From: Halarcobacter anaerophilus
Lineage (GTDB): Bacteria > Campylobacterota > Campylobacteria > Campylobacterales > Arcobacteraceae
DNA length: 64,000 nt
Direction of reading: 5' to 3'
Assembly (NCBI RefSeq): GCF_006459125.1
Contig: NZ_CP041070.1
Coordinates: forward strand, 1-64,000
The position numbers and the translations under genes were made by a program. The stretch's first letter is position 1; every line of letters begins with the position of its first letter. Shown one piece after another: positions 1,474-63,778 of the stretch. The notes under the pieces are model-generated. The model did not search any database. It had not been told where the DNA came from and saw only the letters and a program-made list of their open reading frames with translations.

Positions 1474-4884
<3,411 letters not shown>

Positions 4885-4948: not shown

Positions 4949-5479
4949 ATGAGAAAAAGAAAATTATTATCTTATGAAGCTAAGATAATTTTGGGTCTAA
5001 TTTTTATTATTGCACTGATATTTTTGCCTTTCAATATTTCAGAAGATTTAATTTATTTAGAAACAAAAATAGAAAATTTTTATAACAAATATATCAATAT
5101 ATATCCTCTATGGGCACAATTATCGGTACTTTTTACTCCGTTTTTAATATATTTTCTAATTTATCAAATTAGAAAAAACAGATGCTCTTATAAAGAGGAT
5201 ATTATTTATGATATGAAGTGGAAATGGGAGTGGTCTAAAGATGAAATTGTAAATCTACAATGTTTTTGCCCCTATTGTGATACAGAACTTTATTATGATA
5301 CGACTAAATCAAATTATGATAATTTAGATATTAGTAAACTTGATTTTATCTGCGAAAATTGTAATAAAGTAATTGCTTCAATTCCAAACAGAGATGATGC
5401 CTTAAGAACTTCTAATAATATAAAAAAAGAGATAAAAAGAGTTATAAGAAAAAGAATCAATAAAAGAGTAGTAAAGTAG
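4949..5479 (+). CDS. Small membrane protein with a cytoplasmic zinc-ribbon-like domain
   Basis: I do not recognise a named family. The 176 residues show two hydrophobic segments (about 9-30 and 52-72) separated by a short acidic/aromatic loop, then a soluble part with two Cys-x2-Cys pairs: CPYC near 109-112 and CENC near 135-138, spaced as in a zinc ribbon. The C-terminus is very basic (RVIRKRINKRVVK). The ATG at 4949 has GGAG eight bases upstream. It lies alone between the gyrB terminator and a promoter for the rhodanese gene. The zinc-binding role is inferred from the Cys spacing only. Confidence 0.6.
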   Translation: MRKRKLLSYEAKIILGLIFIIALIFLPFNISEDLIYLETKIENFYNKYINIYPLWAQLSVLFTPFLIYFLIYQIRKNRCSYKEDIIYDMKWKWEWSKDEIVNLQCFCPYCDTELYYDTTKSNYDNLDISKLDFICENCNKVIASIPNRDDALRTSNNIKKEIKRVIRKRINKRVVK

Positions 5480-49449: not shown

Positions 49450-52400
49450 ATGGGTAATGAATATAATGTAATAGAAGAAGCAGTAATAACTTGTGCGTGT
49501 GGAGGGAAAGTAACTCTAACTTCAACCGTACCGAATCTAAAAATTGCAGGTAAAAAACCTTTATACCTAAAAGATATATTAGGAGCCCCTGTTTCTTGTC
49601 CCAGAAGTATAAATCCTTGTACCAAAGTAGCTAGTATCTCAACAGCAGGAACAGAAGTAAATGTATCTGCAACAGGTTTAACCTATCTTCTAAGAACAGA
49701 TGGATTTAAAACAGATAAAGGAAGAGCAGTAATTTTGAAGAATCCTGGACAGGGAACTTCAAAAATTTCATCTATTCCAAGCTTAGAAAATCAAGACGTT
49801 GTTGCAGAAGAAAAAGCTTTAAAAGAAGAAAATATTAAAATAGAAGAAGAGGTAAAAACAAAATATGAGCTTTATCTTTTAAGAAAATCAGGAGAGGTAT
49901 ATAAACCAATACGCCCATCAAGAGCCTTTAGAAAAGCAGATGAAACCTATGTGAATAATCAAAAAGAGAGTGATTTTGATAATATCTATTCCCATACTCT
50001 AGCCTTTGTATATTTAGTAAAAAATAATGAGTATATAGAATACAAAATTTATAACAGCGGTGGAGTAAATGCTGAAAGAGTAAAAGATATATATTATCAT
50101 GATACAAAAAATGAAGTTTTAAGAAAATTTATCCCTTTAGAAGAGGATACAAGCTATAAAGTTTATTATAGTAATTTCCAATTAAAAAGTTTAACTGATA
50201 TACAAAAACTTCCAAAATTAGAAATAAATCCAAAAACATTAGGTAAAAAAAATGGGATCTATATAAAAGATATTGATAGTATAGATAAGAATGAAATTGA
50301 ACAAAAACTCCTAAATGCCCAAACTCCAAAAAATGGAGAAAAAGATTCAAATATAATAGTAGGCTTTTTAGAAGATATTATAGGAGAGATTGAAGATTTA
50401 TATGAAGAGTATTATACAAACTATAAGTTAGCCTTTAGTCATAATAAAAAAATCTTTGATGATATAAAAGAGAAAAATTCATATGCTTATACCATTGCTA
50501 ATATAGTAGATTATTTTTATGTTTCCTCTAGTGAAAGTAAAGAGTATAGAGATAACCTCTCAATTTTAAAAAATTGCTATAGTAAATTTGTAGAAATGAT
50601 TTTTTTTGAGAAGAGACTTTATAACTATGTACTTGATTTAAAAGACATAGAAAATATTGTTCATAAAGATACCAATAAAAAAGCTTTTTCCTTTTATAAA
50701 ATGTTAGAAAATTATAAGAAAAACTTTTTCTCTTTTACATACCTTTTCCCTTCTAAAAGGGATACCGTTGGTAACTCAGCATTTAGATATACAAATGAGT
50801 ATATTCGTAGTATTCCCTATATGAAAAATAGATCAACACATAGCAAGTTTATAATGTACCAAAATCTTTTTTATCATGTAGACCAAAATCAAGATACTAA
50901 ACCTCTGATGAAATTTACAGGTAATGATGATTATACTTTGGTAAAAAAAGATGCTAAACAAGTTTTAGCTCATATAGTATTTTGTTTGTTCTTTTTAGAT
51001 GATTTTGAAGAGGATTTAAAAAATCTTATAGATTATTCTAAAGTAATACAAATAAGAGATGAGTTTTTAATAGCATACAGAAAAATAACACCTTTACCAA
51101 AAATTGGAAAAAGTAATATCTCAAATATAAACGAGTTAATAGAAAAGCAAGAGTTTTATAATCAAACAGTTTTAAAACAAAATGCTGCACAACAAGAGAA
51201 TAAAAACTTTATACAAAAACTCTTTTCAAGTAGTGAAAAGAATAATAGTTTTTTAGAAGATTATAAGCAATTGGATAATCATCATATTATGAAATCCTTC
51301 GATTACTTTTATAAAGTAAGTTTTAAAAGCAATCTACTATACACACCTAATGATATTCAATACTATCAAGAACAAGCCGTTACTTCTCCTAAAAATATAT
51401 TAAAAACTATTAAAACAAAGTTTCAAAAAGGAGACTTAGAAGAGTTACTTCTAAAATATCAAAGTTGTAGTATAGATAAATTTGAATATGTTGTAGGTAG
51501 TATGAATATTATCTATTCTCTTTGTTCTACAAAGATAGATTTAGATGAAGAGATAGAAGTAAACGGGATATTTGCAAGTGAAGATATTCAGTACCTTTTA
51601 ACTTTTACCGATGATATAGTAGATAAAAGAATAAAATTAGAAGATGCGGACAAAGAGCTTCTTTTAGGGGAATATCAAATTTCAGAATATTTTGATGAAT
51701 ATCTTATTAAACAACTTTTAAATGAATTACTTTTTTTAAAATCAAATGATACTGCTAAAGCTAAAGCACAAAGTTTTTTTAATAAATATCAAAATTTAGC
51801 AAAAAAAGCTATGAGTGAAGAAAATGAGAAGATAGAACCTTTGGATTTAGATAAAGATATAAAAAAATTAGAGAAAGAGTTTTATTCTGGTTTAAAATTT
51901 ATCTCTGGAGTAACAGACCAGATTGATAAAAGTTTGGATAAGTTTTTGGAAAATATTAATCAATACAGTGAATATGGAGATAAATTAATATCAAAATCAA
52001 GAGCTTTACAATTAGGCTTAGCTTTTAAAGGCTACTCTTCTATGATGGCAATTGCCTCAATGAAAGAGTATATTTATGATAATACAAACAAAGATATAAA
52101 ATCAACAATAGGCTTTGTAAATGATTTTGCAGGATTAAATAGTGCTTTAATAGGAATAATGCAAAACAAAGAGTTTGGCAATATAGCACAAACTTTTTTA
52201 GATAAAATATATAAAAATCAAGCTAATAAAAATATAATAAAAAATCTTGCAAACAATGAATTTCTTGCTGGTGCAGGAAAATCCTTTGCTAAAGTATCAG
52301 CATATGCTGTGATAATCATTAATGCATTAGATGCTATAAAATATAAAAAAAATGAAGACTATGATGCTTTAACGGCAACAGTTGGAATGGTAACTTTAAA

Positions 52401-53223
52401 TATTGTAGCTTTATTTGTAACTAGCGGTACTCCTCTTGTTGTATTTGTATCCTTAAGTTCGATTGCTTATGCAATAGTTATGTTAAAGCTTGAAGATAGT
52501 GCTTTTGAAAGTTATTTGAAAAGATCATTGTTTTATAAAGATAATATATATTTAAAAAGTAAAGATAAAAAAATAAATGGGTTCCCAGCAAAATATCTTT
52601 TAGAAACAACAAATAGAAAAGAAGAACTAGAATCAATAAATAGTGAAGGTTTTACAAGTGCTAAAAAGATAATTGATTTTATAGGAGAAAACTATGAAAC
52701 AAATGAACTATACTTTGATACAGCATTAAAAAATGAATTAAGCTTTTTAAAATCTTCTTTATATGGATATAAATTAGATAAAGAGAGAATAAAAAGTTAT
52801 CAAAAAGTAAAAACAGTAAATGGTTATGAGATTAATTTCTATGTTTATGAAGGATTAAAGATTCCAAAAATCATTGCAGATGATAAAGAATTTAAACTTT
52901 TCTTTTCTCCTTATAAAGATGAATATTTGGAAATAAATAAAACAGTATTAATTGATAATAATGGTGTATTTAATTTTTTCCCAGAAGAGAATTCTTATTT
53001 TCTTTTAAATAGTTTTACAAATAAAATAAAAAGAGAGAATCATAGCTCATATATAATAGTTACAAGCTCATTAATAGATTTAAAATATAAAGTAGAATTT
53101 AAAGATCTAAATAAAATAGCAACTTCAAATATAGTACCAAAAATGGATTGTGCAATAGAAATAGCATCTTTGGAGCAAATAAGCTTTGAACCAAATGATG
53201 AACAATTAATAAAAAGGAAATAA
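49450..53223 (+). CDS. Large PAAR-like protein with VasX-like features, candidate type VI secretion effector
   Basis: A 1257-residue protein. Residues 1-105 look like a PAAR-like tip domain: ITCACGGKVTLTS, IAGKKPLYLKDILGAPVSCP, NPCTKVASISTAGTEVNVSA and a final PGQGTS. The middle is long and mostly helical; FLEDIIGEIEDLYEEYY near 307 resembles the (D)DP-x-G-x-x-x-DL stretch of VasX-type effectors. Near 945-1015 an amphipathic helix and paired hydrophobic segments (SAYAVIIINALDAIKYKKNE, DYDALTATVGMVTLNIVALF) precede LEDSAFESYLKRS, the arrangement seen in pore-forming effectors. No vgrG or other secretion gene is in the window. GGGA lies before the ATG. Effector function is inferred. Confidence 0.6.
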   Translation: MGNEYNVIEEAVITCACGGKVTLTSTVPNLKIAGKKPLYLKDILGAPVSCPRSINPCTKVASISTAGTEVNVSATGLTYLLRTDGFKTDKGRAVILKNPGQGTSKISSIPSLENQDVVAEEKALKEENIKIEEEVKTKYELYLLRKSGEVYKPIRPSRAFRKADETYVNNQKESDFDNIYSHTLAFVYLVKNNEYIEYKIYNSGGVNAERVKDIYYHDTKNEVLRKFIPLEEDTSYKVYYSNFQLKSLTDIQKLPKLEINPKTLGKKNGIYIKDIDSIDKNEIEQKLLNAQTPKNGEKDSNIIVGFLEDIIGEIEDLYEEYYTNYKLAFSHNKKIFDDIKEKNSYAYTIANIVDYFYVSSSESKEYRDNLSILKNCYSKFVEMIFFEKRLYNYVLDLKDIENIVHKDTNKKAFSFYKMLENYKKNFFSFTYLFPSKRDTVGNSAFRYTNEYIRSIPYMKNRSTHSKFIMYQNLFYHVDQNQDTKPLMKFTGNDDYTLVKKDAKQVLAHIVFCLFFLDDFEEDLKNLIDYSKVIQIRDEFLIAYRKITPLPKIGKSNISNINELIEKQEFYNQTVLKQNAAQQENKNFIQKLFSSSEKNNSFLEDYKQLDNHHIMKSFDYFYKVSFKSNLLYTPNDIQYYQEQAVTSPKNILKTIKTKFQKGDLEELLLKYQSCSIDKFEYVVGSMNIIYSLCSTKIDLDEEIEVNGIFASEDIQYLLTFTDDIVDKRIKLEDADKELLLGEYQISEYFDEYLIKQLLNELLFLKSNDTAKAKAQSFFNKYQNLAKKAMSEENEKIEPLDLDKDIKKLEKEFYSGLKFISGVTDQIDKSLDKFLENINQYSEYGDKLISKSRALQLGLAFKGYSSMMAIASMKEYIYDNTNKDIKSTIGFVNDFAGLNSALIGIMQNKEFGNIAQTFLDKIYKNQANKNIIKNLANNEFLAGAGKSFAKVSAYAVIIINALDAIKYKKNEDYDALTATVGMVTLNIVALFVTSGTPLVVFVSLSSIAYAIVMLKLEDSAFESYLKRSLFYKDNIYLKSKDKKINGFPAKYLLETTNRKEELESINSEGFTSAKKIIDFIGENYETNELYFDTALKNELSFLKSSLYGYKLDKERIKSYQKVKTVNGYEINFYVYEGLKIPKIIADDKEFKLFFSPYKDEYLEINKTVLIDNNGVFNFFPEENSYFLLNSFTNKIKRENHSSYIIVTSSLIDLKYKVEFKDLNKIATSNIVPKMDCAIEIASLEQISFEPNDEQLIKRK

Positions 53224-58690: not shown

Positions 58691-59758
58691 ATGACTCTCT
58701 TGACAAAGAATGATTACTTACTTAATATTTTTAATTATAAACTATATAAATATATAAATAAAACCTATATACGGTTTATAGACGACTTAATAGAAGAAAA
58801 TGATTTAAAAAAATTTAATATAAAAACATCGTTTTTGGATAATTATAGAAGAAGTAGATTCTATAATGAAGTTTTTCTTATAACAAGCAGCGGAAATATA
58901 GAGTTTTTGCATAAACAAAATCTTATAAAGTTTGTTTATTGTGACAAATGTGAGATTAATTCTCTTCTAAATATAAATATTAAAAATCAAAAAACCTATG
59001 AACTTATAAAAGTTTTAGAAATACTTCAAAAAAAGTTTTTTATAACAAACAATATAAGTGATATTAAATATATCCAGCATAGTGATATTTTAAATATGCA
59101 TAAAAAAGTATTTAATACTTTTTTGTCTAAACCTATAATTAGTCTGATTTTAAATAATACTGCATATAGAGACAGAGATAACAATATTCATAAGTTATCC
59201 TATCTTACTCCCAAAAAATATTTTTTAAACTATATAAGAATAAAACGCATATTAAGTAAATATCCTCTTGCCACGGATGAATTAATAAAAAAAGAGTTGA
59301 AAACAGAGTTTGATATAGATATTTCAACGGTTCAAGTCTTTAAAATAAGAAAAAAATATTTTATTCCAAGTAGGACTCAAAGAGTTCATGAAAATAATTA
59401 TGAGAGTTTTGAATACTATTTCAGCAGACCAAAATTGCTGATTAATGAAAATTTATTAAAATATAAAAACAGTGAAGCTGTTTATGAATTAATCAGTACT
59501 TCAAAAATAAATTATACCTACAAAGAGAGCTATACTGTATATATTGGATCAACAAAAAATCTTTATAAAAGACTTAACGAATATATAAACAGTAAAGGTC
59601 ATACCCCTAAACTAAGAGCTTATATAAAATCCAACCTTATCTACTTTCGAGCCGTAGAAACAAAAAATTATAAAGGGCTTGAAACCACCCTGCTAAATAA
59701 GTTTATAGACTCTTTTGGCGAACTACCTCTTCTTAATAGCAATAACTCAAAAAAATAA
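58691..59758 (+). CDS. GIY-YIG nuclease-like protein with a sigma-54-like helix-turn-helix
   Basis: The 355 residues do not match any single family I know. Residues about 181-232 resemble the RpoN-box region of sigma-54: IRIKRILSKYPLATDELIKK, then IDISTVQVFKIRKKYFIPSR with the T-V-x-x-x-R and P-S-R-x-x-R pattern; 126-180 could match part of the core-binding/HTH region. Residues 263-350 form a GIY-YIG domain: AVY (263-265), YIG (284-286), R294 in YKRLNEYI, the putative catalytic E331 in GLETTLLNKF and a final GELPLLN. There is a Cys pair CDKC at 84-87. The N-terminal 120 residues are unknown. Confidence 0.6.
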   Translation: MTLLTKNDYLLNIFNYKLYKYINKTYIRFIDDLIEENDLKKFNIKTSFLDNYRRSRFYNEVFLITSSGNIEFLHKQNLIKFVYCDKCEINSLLNINIKNQKTYELIKVLEILQKKFFITNNISDIKYIQHSDILNMHKKVFNTFLSKPIISLILNNTAYRDRDNNIHKLSYLTPKKYFLNYIRIKRILSKYPLATDELIKKELKTEFDIDISTVQVFKIRKKYFIPSRTQRVHENNYESFEYYFSRPKLLINENLLKYKNSEAVYELISTSKINYTYKESYTVYIGSTKNLYKRLNEYINSKGHTPKLRAYIKSNLIYFRAVETKNYKGLETTLLNKFIDSFGELPLLNSNNSKK

Positions 59759-59778
59759 TTTCTTAACCTTAATGAAAA

Positions 59779-59798
59779 GATAAGATAAGATAAGATAA
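59779..59798 (+). repeat. Pentanucleotide tandem repeat (GATAA)4 before the chemoreceptor gene
   Basis: Four exact copies of GATAA lie 33 bases before the ATG at 59831, where a promoter is expected. Copy-number change by slippage could alter promoter spacing and expression. Confidence 0.6.
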
Positions 59799-59830: not shown

Positions 59831-61711
59831 ATGACCAATAATATTTCAACAAAAGCTAAGCTTATGTCATTTCCGTTAATGTTTTTAGTAATAATTATCA
59901 TTTCTATTGTTACTTTTAGTTACTATCACAATTTATCAGAAAAAAGGAATAGTGCAGCTTTTAAAACTGAATTATTTATACAAGATCTGCTGCGAATACG
60001 AATTCTTGCAAATCAATTTCTAATGAATCCTAGTGAAAACAGATCAAAAAAAACGATAAAAAGTTTGGAACAATTAAATAATAAAATAATAAATTTTAAA
60101 AAGAGTTTAAGTCATAAAGAAAACAGAAATCTTTGTGATGAGATACTAAAAGCCTCAACGCAGTATTTAAAAGATTTTAAAAAACTTTCAAAAGAGGAGT
60201 TTTTAAATAACAACTCTTTGGCAAAAAACAATAAAGAGTATCTTTTTTTGATAAAACAGATGGTTGACTCTTCTAACAAATTAGAAGAGTTAATGCTTAA
60301 AATAAATAAAAGTGCAACATTATTGAAAAATGAATCTATAGAGACTATGGAAGAGGTATTAATCTCTATGGCAGCGGTTTTTATAATTTTGTTTTCTATT
60401 TTGTCTGTTTTTATTTTAAAACAGATTATCTCATCTTTGGATGATTTTAAAGAGGGCTTGGAGAGTTTCTTCAAATATTTAAATAGAGAAGCCAAACAAA
60501 GCAAACTTTTAGATGATAAAAGAAAAGATGAATTCGGTGTTATGGCAAAAATGGTTAATAGCAATATCTTAACAACGGAAAAATCTATTCAGGAAGACAG
60601 AGATGTTATTCAAAAAGTTATTGATGTCTTATCTGAACTTGAAAAAGGTGATTTATATCAAAGAGTAAAAACAAAATCATCAAATCCCGCTTTACAAAAA
60701 CTAATATCTTTGTTAAATGAAATGAGTGAAAATTTAGAATCAAATGTTGACAGAGTTTTAAACATATTAGATGAGTATTCAAATTATAAATATAGAAACA
60801 AAGTTCAAACAAACAACTTAAAAGAGCATCTTTTAAGATTGGCAACAGGAGTTAATACTTTGGGTGATTCTATTACCCAGATGCTTATTGACAATGAGTC
60901 AAACGGTATTGTTTTAGGAAAAAGTTCAGACGTACTTATCCAAAATGTTGATGTTCTAAACAGAAATTCAAATGAAGCCGCAGCAGCTTTGGAAGAGACC
61001 GCAGCAGCTTTAGAAGAGATTACGGGAAATATTGTCAGCAATACGCAAAACGTAGTCAAAATGTCCGACTATGCAAAACAGTTGAGTAACTCTGCAAATG
61101 AGGGACAAAACTTAGCTTCAAAAACTACTTCTTCTATGGATGAGATAAATGATAAAGTGAACTCAATAAATGAAGCTATTGCAGTAATCGATCAAATTGC
61201 ATTTCAAACAAATATTCTTTCACTTAACGCAGCAGTCGAGGCGGCAACGGCAGGTGATGCAGGTAAAGGTTTTGCGGTAGTTGCACAAGAGGTTAGAAAT
61301 CTTGCTTCAAAATCGGCAGAAGCTGCCAAAAGAATAAAAGATTTAGTAGAAGATGCAACGCTAAGGGCAAATGAGGGTAAAAAAATAGCAGATGATATGA
61401 TTGAAGGTTATGAAGGATTAAATGAAAATATAAAAAATACCTTGGAAATTATATCTGATGTTGAAATGGCAAGCAAAGAACAATCCACAGGAATAGAACA
61501 GATAAATGATGCGGTAACCTCTTTAGATCAACAAACCCAGGAAAATGCCCAAATTGCTACACAAACCCATGAGATCTCTATGGAAACGGACAAAATAGCA
61601 AAACTGATTATTACAAGCGTAAATGAGAAAGATTTTATAAATCCAAGCAAAAAAGATGAGTTTAAAAATAAAAAAGAAGACTCAGCTTATTTAGAAAAAA
61701 TCGTATTGTAG
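59831..61711 (+). CDS. Methyl-accepting chemotaxis protein
   Basis: A 626-residue chemoreceptor. A transmembrane segment (about 12-32) and a second one (about 178-196) enclose a 145-residue helical periplasmic sensor, likely a four-helix bundle. HAMP-like linkers follow, and the C-terminal signalling domain has the conserved hairpin tip [19 protein letters not shown] and [20 protein letters not shown] near 460-505. It ends without a CheR-docking pentapeptide. Slippage-prone DNA precedes it. The GGDEF-EAL gene starts 15 to 21 bases downstream. Confidence 0.93.
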
Positions 61712-61726
61712 TTTGGAAATAAGAGT

Positions 61727-63778
61727 TTGAAAATGGTACAAGAGTATAAACAAGGGAAAAAAGAGATAAACTCTTTTAATTTTATTATTGATGAAATGGA
61801 TGCTTTGGTATATGTTATTGATATACAAAGTTATAAAATCTTATATAGTAACAAAAAATGTGAGGACGAATTTGGTGATGTTGTAGGAAAAACTTGTTAT
61901 AAGGCTTTGCAAAAAAATAGAGATAAACCTTGTATTGAGTGCCCTTTAAGTGACGAAAATAACAGAGTTTTGGGAAAAAGTTTAAAATGGGAGCATAAAA
62001 ATACACTAAATGGGAAAACATATCTGTTTAGTGACAAAATTGTAAGAGACAATATTACAGGCGGATTAAGTAAAGTACAAGTGGGGATAGATATCTCAAA
62101 ACAAAAAATATTAGAAGAGGAGATACTTAGACAACAGAGTAAAACTTTAGAGACTTTTGAAGAACTTTTTAACTCTACTATTGAGGGATTGATAATTTAT
62201 GATAGAGATAAAAAGTGTATAAGAGTCAATAATGTGGCTCCTAAATTGCTTGGATATAGTGCCGAAGAGATGATAGGAATGGATGCCCTTGATTTTATAG
62301 AAGAGTCTTCTTGCCCTCTTGTAAGCACTGTTATCGAAAAAGATGAACAAGAGCCTTATGAAGTCTTTATGGTAAAAAAAAGCGGAGACTCTTTTCCTGC
62401 TCTTATCAGAGGTAAAAATATATTATTAAATGATGAAAAAATTAGAGTCTCTGCAATAATAGACATAACACAAATAAAAGAGAAAGAGGCAGAGGTCTCA
62501 AGACTGGCATATTTTGATGCTTTAACTTCTTTACCTAATAGAGTTTTATTTAAAGACAGAGTAAATTTATTGATTTCCAAAAGTGCAAGATATAAAACTT
62601 TCGGAGCTTTTCTTTTTATTGATTTGGATTATTTTAAAACGGTAAATGATACAAAAGGGCATGATATAGGGGATAAAATTTTAATTGAATGCTCTAAAAG
62701 ATTGAAAAAAATTATCAGAAGTTCAGACTCTTTGGCAAGGTTTGGAGGGGATGAGTTTATTTTATTGATAGATACTCAAAAGATGAATAGATTTGATGCC
62801 ATTGACAGTATAAAAACGGTTGCAAATAAAATACTTAAAATAATCAGAAAACCTTTTATAATTGAAGATAGTCAATATCAGTTGAGTGCAAGTATAGGCA
62901 TATCTATTTTTAATGATGAAACCTCTTTTGAAGAGCTTTTAAGAAAAGCAGACGGTGCTATGTATTATGCAAAAGAGAAAGGACGGGACAATTTTAGTTT
63001 TTTTGATCCTTTATTGCAAAAAAGTTTGGATAGAAAAGCTATTGTTTTAGATAGATTAAGAGAAGCAATAGCTTTAAACAAAATAGAAATAGCTTATCAA
63101 AAACAAGTCGGCTTAAACAAAGAAGTAATAGGTGTAGAAGCTTTAGCTAGGTGGAATGATGAGAAACTGGGGTTTGTGAGTCCTGCAGAATTTATCCCTA
63201 TAGCTGAAGAGGGAGGATTGATTATTACTTTTGGATATTTTTTAATTGAAGAGGTTGTAAAAGTTTTAAAAGAGTGGGAAGACGATGAAATAAAGTCTAA
63301 ATGGAGAGTCTCTATAAACGTAAGTTTAAGTCAATTTGAAAAAGATGATTTTGAATTTTTTTTAGAAGATATAATCTATAAATATAAAGTAAATGCGAAC
63401 CTTATACGGTTGGAAATTACTGAAAGTCTGCTTCTTAAAAACAGCAATAAAGCAGTTAGAAAAATAGATTTTTTAAAAGATCTGGGACTTACAATCTCTA
63501 TTGATGATTTTGGAACAGGTTATTCCTCTTTGGCATATTTAAAAAAGCTCTCTATAGATGAACTTAAAATTGATAAATCATTTATTGACGATATAGTTAC
63601 GAATGAGAGTGATGAAGCTATAGTAACGGCTATTTTAGGTATTGGGAATAAATTCGGTTTTGATGTTATTGCCGAGGGGGTTGAAACAGAAGAGATGCAT
63701 GAAAAACTTTTAAAATTGGGATGTAAATATTTTCAAGGATATCTTTTCTTTAAACCAATGAGTAAAGAAAAGTTATAA
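61727..63778 (+). CDS. PAS-PAS-GGDEF-EAL cyclic-di-GMP signalling protein
   Basis: The 683-residue cytoplasmic protein has a first PAS domain with a Cys-rich loop (CYKALQKNRDKPCIECPL near 62-79, typical of a redox- or metal-sensitive PAS subtype), a second PAS domain (about 140-255), a GGDEF domain with intact RFGGDEF near 342-348 and an RSSD inhibitory site just before it, and an EAL domain with intact motifs: EALARW, EITESLL, DDFGTGYSSLAYL, KIDKSFI and EGVETEE. Both cyclase and phosphodiesterase activities look possible. The start is TTG at 61727 or ATG at 61733. It is probably cotranscribed with the chemoreceptor. Confidence 0.92.
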   Translation: MKMVQEYKQGKKEINSFNFIIDEMDALVYVIDIQSYKILYSNKKCEDEFGDVVGKTCYKALQKNRDKPCIECPLSDENNRVLGKSLKWEHKNTLNGKTYLFSDKIVRDNITGGLSKVQVGIDISKQKILEEEILRQQSKTLETFEELFNSTIEGLIIYDRDKKCIRVNNVAPKLLGYSAEEMIGMDALDFIEESSCPLVSTVIEKDEQEPYEVFMVKKSGDSFPALIRGKNILLNDEKIRVSAIIDITQIKEKEAEVSRLAYFDALTSLPNRVLFKDRVNLLISKSARYKTFGAFLFIDLDYFKTVNDTKGHDIGDKILIECSKRLKKIIRSSDSLARFGGDEFILLIDTQKMNRFDAIDSIKTVANKILKIIRKPFIIEDSQYQLSASIGISIFNDETSFEELLRKADGAMYYAKEKGRDNFSFFDPLLQKSLDRKAIVLDRLREAIALNKIEIAYQKQVGLNKEVIGVEALARWNDEKLGFVSPAEFIPIAEEGGLIITFGYFLIEEVVKVLKEWEDDEIKSKWRVSINVSLSQFEKDDFEFFLEDIIYKYKVNANLIRLEITESLLLKNSNKAVRKIDFLKDLGLTISIDDFGTGYSSLAYLKKLSIDELKIDKSFIDDIVTNESDEAIVTAILGIGNKFGFDVIAEGVETEEMHEKLLKLGCKYFQGYLFFKPMSKEKL

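Follow-up and report, generated by a model that had tools for sequence, protein, structure and literature searches.

What is the function of a protein that joins, in a single chain, the DNA-binding part of a sigma factor and a nuclease? This question is raised by a gene in the window analysed here, a stretch of 64,000 nucleotides at the start of contig NZ_CP041070.1 of Halarcobacter anaerophilus (Table 1). Judged from its sequence, the protein probably belongs to an undescribed family of nucleases that are targeted and probably mobile.

Table 1. Features around the nuclease gene, with positions counted along the window.
Feature	Position	Strand	Remarks
Gene for sigma-54-DBD/GIY-YIG nuclease	58691..59758	+	355 aa; start ATG 58691 or TTG 58700
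Predicted sigma-54 DNA-binding domain (DBD), complete, with HTH and RpoN-box region	58970..59386	+	residues 94–232
GIY-YIG nuclease domain	59477..59740	+	residues 263–350; five presumed catalytic positions invariant
Element left of the array	59763..59776	+	TT-N10-AA in the window; abuts the array
Tandem array AAGAT x 4.4	59777..59798	+	adjoins the nuclease gene
Chemoreceptor (MCP) gene	59831..61711	+	begins some 35 bp after the array
PAS-GGDEF-EAL gene	61727..63778	+	after the MCP gene

In the Pfam scan of the window protein (P0001) at E ≤ 10, GIY-YIG and T5orf172 were the only matches, the former (PF01541) with 27.9 bits over a cut-off of 22.6 at residues 278–337, and no HUH/Y1 transposase was found. 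Every one of the 15 Arcobacteraceae sequences and of the 16 sequences in a wider alignment, P0001 being counted in both, keeps Tyr265, Tyr284, Arg294, Glu331 and Asn349, which correspond to the catalytic residues of I-TevI and UvrC. A first-pass annotation had assigned residues 263–350 to GIY-YIG with Arg and Glu in place, and this assignment holds, the site being disrupted in none of the 16 proteins. The nuclease site thus appears intact, and the protein would be expected to cleave DNA. The homologues within the genus align from TTG 58700, pointing to it as an alternative start. The CDKC pair near residue 84, left unexplained at first, is there but not conserved (Cys84 is kept in 1 and Cys87 in 4 of the 15 aligned Arcobacteraceae homologues), and a zinc-binding role was rejected on this ground.

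The DNA-binding part was recognised through relatives of the protein. P0001 alone gave no match to PF04552 at E ≤ 10; the model recognised 8 of 15 sequences in the first alignment when E was allowed up to 1 (best 2.8e-6), and 13 of 16 in the wide alignment with a limit of 0.1 (best 5e-13). The homologue from genome G088 exceeded the cut-off (26.9 against 22.8 bits, model positions 8–157 of 160), and those from G112 and G068 exceeded it together with neighbouring pieces in the search of 104 genomes. When the 15 Arcobacteraceae homologues were aligned by hhalign with 30 RpoN loci, some of them near-identical, the probability was 89.3 with E 2.1e-6, while one reversed and five column-shuffled controls gave at most 0.5. 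The hhalign match covers the DBD only, and in it residues 94–232 are collinear with residues 291–429 of the genome's own RpoN. Searched against PDB, the profile of the 15 homologues ranked RpoN first at E 0.063, and a profile built on ten family members of other phyla, in which row L118 has hand-chosen coordinates, matched RpoN at E 1.3e-15 over residues 81–227, that is, the whole DBD, with RpoN making up the top 23 of the 26 sequences listed. Antibody chains, matched when P0001 alone was run by phmmer against PDB, had E of 0.34 and worse and were discarded as chance. The activator-interacting and core-binding domains of sigma-54 were not found by Pfam in P0001 or among the families listed for its relatives. 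Because the alignment with RpoN is collinear over residues 94–232, the whole sigma-54 DBD appears to be present. The RpoN likeness noticed earlier at residues 181–232 is therefore real, but its extent was taken too small; the proposed fusion to GIY-YIG is upheld by the profile searches, which confirm it as a real and larger one.

Two structure models are consistent with both halves, namely one with mean pLDDT 70.9 (N-terminus and residues 42–97 unreliable) that aligned to UvrC (Z 10.1, 89 aligned, 2.2 Å) and to sigma-54 8red_M (VIA; Z 8.2, 127 aligned, 2.7 Å), and one with mean pLDDT 70.8 that aligned to 5ui5_V (Z 9.6, 139 aligned, 3.6 Å) and whose first 23 structure-match rows were sigma-54, though Z values of such size can arise by chance alone and the sequence evidence carries the fold claim. 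Since the best Foldseek matches, UvrC at 5.2e-3 and SigN at 5.8e-3, did not reach E ≤ 0.001, our statements on the fold lean first on the sequence profiles.

Homologues with the same architecture occur in Arcobacteraceae and in several other phyla. Within the family, 15 genes were found in 14 of 104 genomes, one of them on a plasmid of Arcobacter cloacae (G065) and one on a contig of Aliarcobacter vitoriensis, and the copy in G112 is broken near its start. A scan of genome contigs yielded 14 loci, 13 of which lie outside Arcobacteraceae, all in MAGs, from Desulfofervidaceae, Chloroflexota, Bacteroidetes, Stahlbacteria, Desulfobacteraceae, Neomarinimicrobiota and unnamed bacteria. In a Campylobacterota sample, in which at most five candidates per genome were scored, 76 of 397 genomes had a match, mostly RpoN or other GIY-YIG proteins, and the full-length nucleases among the candidates listed were all in the window's family. 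The dN/dS values were 0.11–0.28 in six chosen Arcobacteraceae pairs and 0.19–0.47 in four other pairs. Neither a phage collection, searched with P0001 at the settings used, nor viral contigs, searched with P0001 and the wide profile in scans that begin from short peptide patterns, gave a match, and a phage or viral origin was rejected at these settings. A restriction-modification or defence nuclease was also rejected: PADLOC on three proteins gave nothing beyond weak matches to DruM (E 0.0065, 43 residues) and UzuA (E 0.054), and no methylase was found among the window neighbours by reading.

The unit of nuclease gene, array and MCP gene is also present in G002, G007 and G010, and a gene of the PAS-GGDEF-EAL BLAST cluster accompanies these three components there and on the A. 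cloacae plasmid. The position after a two-component regulator, which had been thought to fit the proposed functions, seems incidental: it is found in 3 of the 4 genus members carrying the gene, while in G010 the nuclease gene follows an ORF read as fumarase.

In Arcobacteraceae the array co-occurs with the gene. All 14 carrier genomes contain the exact 20-mer (AAGAT)4 and none of the 90 non-carriers does, and the reversed pattern, used as control, is absent from all 104 genomes; were the genomes independent of one another, which is not the case, such agreement would arise by chance at about 1e-17. An exact array adjoins 12 of the 15 nuclease genes. Beside the first copy in G072 the array has one mismatch, and beside the genes of G062 and G071 there is none. 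Thirteen of the carriers have 1–4 arrays each, and G070 has 12 with one nuclease gene; several unlinked arrays of G070 share 40–120 bp of left flank and mostly no right flank. This genome also shows a tandem duplication of 4195 bp that comprises chemoreceptor genes with arrays (L182, 9325–17780). In G088, a perfect array stands by a decayed gene copy, with the intact copy elsewhere. When up to two mismatches are allowed, 28 matches appear in 19 of the 90 non-carriers, slightly above the 17 reversed-control matches in non-carriers. An array with a single mismatch exists among them only in G004 and G022. In G004, which has no nuclease gene, the degenerate array lies at an MCP gene orthologous to that of the window (52%), and the neighbour is read as fumarase, the same as in the carrier G010; this may reflect loss of the gene.

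The carriers hold 34 arrays, 32 with four units and two with five, and every one precedes a sensory operon in the sense of that operon. By our reading of motifs and translations, supplemented by Pfam for examples, 30 are MCP operons (some preceded by an ORF of 58–71 aa or by a small PAS gene, and three truncated where the contig stops), three are response-regulator-GGDEF operons and one is a histidine kinase operon. The first ORF begins 11–47 bp after the array in 25 cases and 94–380 bp after it in nine, ORFs under 70 aa having been sought at 11 of the 34. An ORF of 58–71 aa lies between array and MCP gene at L101, L102, L099, L182, L191 and L192, and the one tested had no Pfam match.

It is known that sigma-54 promoters have the form GG-N10-GC, in which the RpoN box reads the -24 element and the HTH the -12 element. 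The motif beside the repeats (GG-N10-G, or RG-N10-GC in other phyla) has this same -24/-12 spacing. The Arcobacteraceae carriers outside the window's genus have 28 distinct sites. All 28 have G at -14 and 27 have it at -13; TAAT occupies -7 to -4 in 27–28 and G occupies -2 in 27, and GG-N10-G is complete in 26. Within the genus, TT replaces GG at all four sites, and Arg214 is missing in exactly the four corresponding proteins and present in the other aligned ones. Overall, Arg213-Arg214 goes with GG, Arg214 alone with RG, and neither with TT. The title of structure 2o8k states an RpoN -24 contact, and the correlation seen here between box and site is relevant to the reading of -24 by RpoN.

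In other phyla the gene was found in another context. At ten loci one PAS domain is split over two ORFs, with the gene or pieces of it in between; the second part of the domain begins with M...ELILQFD.ARIFFA(E)n..VVSL.DITERK or close to that. The DNA there reads RG-N10-GCA followed by pure (GAA)6-12, and the gene stop lies 51–60 bp from RG at 10 of 10 loci; the encoded protein and common descent constrain this distance as well as part of the RG-N10-GC motif. The inserts, whose ends were delimited by hand, are 1341–1603 bp long and have a lower GC content than their flanks at 9 of 10 loci (L089 only slightly lower; the exception is L079). They are 63–95% identical in DNA, and homology mostly stops near their ends; L080 and L082, whose flanks are shared too, are near-copies and not independent, and L085 and L088 share more on the left. 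Decayed copies were also seen. Genome G479 has, on a contig different from that of its occupied PAS gene, an uninterrupted PAS gene of the same subtype (L181) with GG-N10-GCA(GAA)8. The insert boundaries and this unsplit homologue support the view that the gene is a mobile insert in these PAS genes. G480 has a split PAS without the nuclease gene. At L176 (600–800) the halves of a split PAS adjoin with no nuclease gene between them, which is likely a scar that keeps the split. The sequence TTGCA(GAA)5G occurs at 17 sites in 11 of the 13 other-phyla genomes, 15 of them on a contig holding the gene. L078 has TTGGCAC...(GAA)11 in the next gene. At L077 an (AAGC)n array lies upstream of the gene, opposite to the usual side, at the contig end; AAGC arrays were found only at this contig end of G468, in 1 of 15 genomes. 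Further pure (GAA)n tracts lie in other PAS domains near the nuclease gene (L083 6487, L085 720, L088 3841 and 7729, L078 9029), most of them at a second PAS position (IFA(E)n) as poly-Glu loops.

In the I-TevI scheme of homing, insertion of the gene separates the binding site from the cut site. We consider, with a probability of roughly 0.55, that the protein is a homing-type, I-TevI-like site-specific endonuclease which uses a borrowed sigma-54 DBD to hold a -24/-12-like site and cuts upstream of it. The DBD would bind the GG-N10-G or RG-N10-GC motif as RpoN binds -24/-12, with the HTH on the -12 side and the RpoN box on the -24 side. Since the order along the chain is HTH, RpoN box and nuclease, the C-terminal nuclease would come to lie on the -24 side, where it could reach upstream and cut. 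The gene itself is found on the GG/-24 side in all 13 array-linked Arcobacteraceae genes, in the G088 pseudogene and at the ten PAS loci, L077 being the exception. Its insertion would part binding site from cut site and so protect the occupied allele, as in I-TevI, and repair of the break from the occupied copy would spread the gene between sensory genes. The identity of the two domains, the invariance of the catalytic residues, the dN/dS values, the co-occurrence of gene and array, the near-constant motif, the presence of Arg214 wherever G is kept at -24, the inserts in PAS genes with their narrow range of distances to the motif, the unsplit PAS homologue, and the decayed and plasmid copies all argue for this explanation.

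Several observations speak against homing. The arrays beside the gene remain intact, and one genome holds 12 with a single gene; the genes of G062 and G071 lack an adjoining array, the first array of G072 is mismatched, and that of L077 lies on the other side. A naive target is unseen in Arcobacteraceae, because none of the 90 non-carriers has an exact array, the uninterrupted PAS gene with its site being known from a carrier, G479. For the same reason a regulatory or a RAYT-like role is a serious rival within the window's family. The location of the arrays fits promoters, as for operators, and the Arcobacteraceae protein might be mainly a regulator that binds the arrays in sensory promoters and represses or activates, the nuclease activity being dispensable or conditional. 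Besides the constant position and sense of the arrays before MCP, histidine kinase or response-regulator-GGDEF operons, their short distance from the first ORF, their nearly fixed number of units and their confinement to gene-carrying genomes would suit such a role, and I-TevI is described as both nuclease and repressor (PMC10448857). However, none of the 16 aligned sequences departs from the catalytic residues, the arrays of other phyla lie inside coding sequence where the gene is an insert, and the window array is not in the promoter of the nuclease's own gene, so that we regard this role as doubtful. In RAYT/REP systems, a nuclease gene coding for an HUH/Y1 transposase is accompanied by dispersed cognate extragenic palindromes. 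Here, too, one nuclease gene co-occurs with several short dispersed cognate elements, but the enzyme fold is unrelated and the elements, located at sensory genes, are tandem arrays accompanied by a sigma-54-like motif. A nuclease that acts in trans to seed, copy or maintain the arrays as short non-autonomous elements would agree with the perfect co-occurrence, the shared left flanks in G070, the degenerate array at the orthologous MCP gene of G004, which lacks the gene, and the perfect array by the decayed copy in G088. It seems unlikely, as the shared flanks may stem from MCP duplication (a tandem one is present in that genome), one G070 pair also agrees in 72% of the 40 bp directly to the right, all carriers other than G070 have only few arrays, and the array at the first G072 copy is imperfect. 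More tentatively than homing, one may think of a nuclease-plus-array system, in which the sigma-54-derived DBD would aim the GIY-YIG domain at -24/-12-like motifs abutting AAG-core microsatellites and the nuclease would spread, copy or keep the arrays. In that case (AAG)n, (AAGC)n and (AAGAT)4 would be placed in promoters and coding sequence of sensory genes, chemoreceptors and PAS sensors would be rewired or diversified in several phyla, and in some elements the GIY-YIG part would be reached only by a frameshift at a poly-A run.

The first-pass annotation had guessed at a nuclease directed to -24/-12-like promoter sites. The geometry of this guess stands, since GG-N10-G has it and the DBD is homologous to that of RpoN, but the host's own sigma-54 promoters are not a probable target, because 8 of the 14 carriers show no RpoN DBD. 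The partner sites, moreover, carry arrays found in carriers only, and in the window the RpoN box of the protein lacks Arg-Arg and the site lacks GG; we regard cleavage at host promoters as very improbable. A full-length RpoN DBD was counted in 6 of 14 carriers against 26 of 90 non-carriers, leaving out a partial match in G101 and including among the 26 one with a stop and one cut short, and a link between the nuclease gene and the presence of RpoN was accordingly rejected. Such a domain was found in just 32 of the 104 Arcobacteraceae genomes. It could also be argued that P0001 is an ordinary protein of the GIY-YIG type whose HTH is a generic one and that the arrays are unrelated microsatellites, given that AT-rich genomes abound in repeats, that P0001 alone is silent against PF04552 and that the 15-sequence profile reaches RpoN only at E 0.063. 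Such a coincidence is hardly credible in view of the wider family, whose top profile match is RpoN over the whole DBD, and of the exact arrays in all carriers and in neither the other genomes nor the reversed control.

A homing-type endonuclease of the proposed kind resembles the I-TevI type in the linkage of GIY-YIG to a separate DNA-binding part, the invasion of other genes, the patchy spread with decay, and the position of the nuclease next to its likely site. It differs in that its DBD is N-terminal and of sigma-54 type, whereas that of I-TevI is a C-terminal Zn finger/HTH (PMC1564403), and in having as partner an AAG-core tandem array, in being chromosomal and associated with sensory genes, and in the lack of a phage or viral match at the settings used. 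Compared with RpoN (PF04552), it is collinear over the whole DBD and its partner DNA has -24/-12-like spacing, but it is fused to a nuclease, residues of its RpoN box are changed, and no activator or core-binding domain was found. The LuxR-type wHTH-GIY-YIG protein of Symbiobacterium (PMC1564403) likewise carries the DBD of a transcription factor ahead of GIY-YIG; the DBD is another one, and an array partner is not mentioned in the passage on it. The words sigma and RpoN are absent from the main text of that GIY-YIG survey. In agreement with the earlier remark that no protein with this combination is described, a sigma-54 DBD on a nuclease is apparently undescribed among the literature matches listed, in which subscription journals are thinly covered, so that absence is unproven; the same matches apparently include no nuclease gene found together with short tandem arrays beside sensory genes. 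If the proposal is true, the -24/-12 reader of RpoN would have moved from transcription to DNA targeting, partly in bacteria without RpoN, a new homing-type nuclease with a directly testable site would be at hand, and microsatellites of bacterial sensory genes would be tied to a dedicated enzyme.

Two further observations were made. In three elements (L085 at about 2060–2113, L087 at about 3510–3553 and L088 at about 5150–5194), the DBD and the GIY-YIG part lie in different frames, joined at a linker run of 8–9 A by a -1 shift and both otherwise open, and the nuclease part shows a dN/dS of 0.23 between L087 and L088. This frame break may reflect programmed frameshifting as in IS elements, decay, or an assembly error. 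In the window itself, an ORF of 1257 aa (49450–53223) begins with what we presume to be a PAAR-like or secretion-linked protein.
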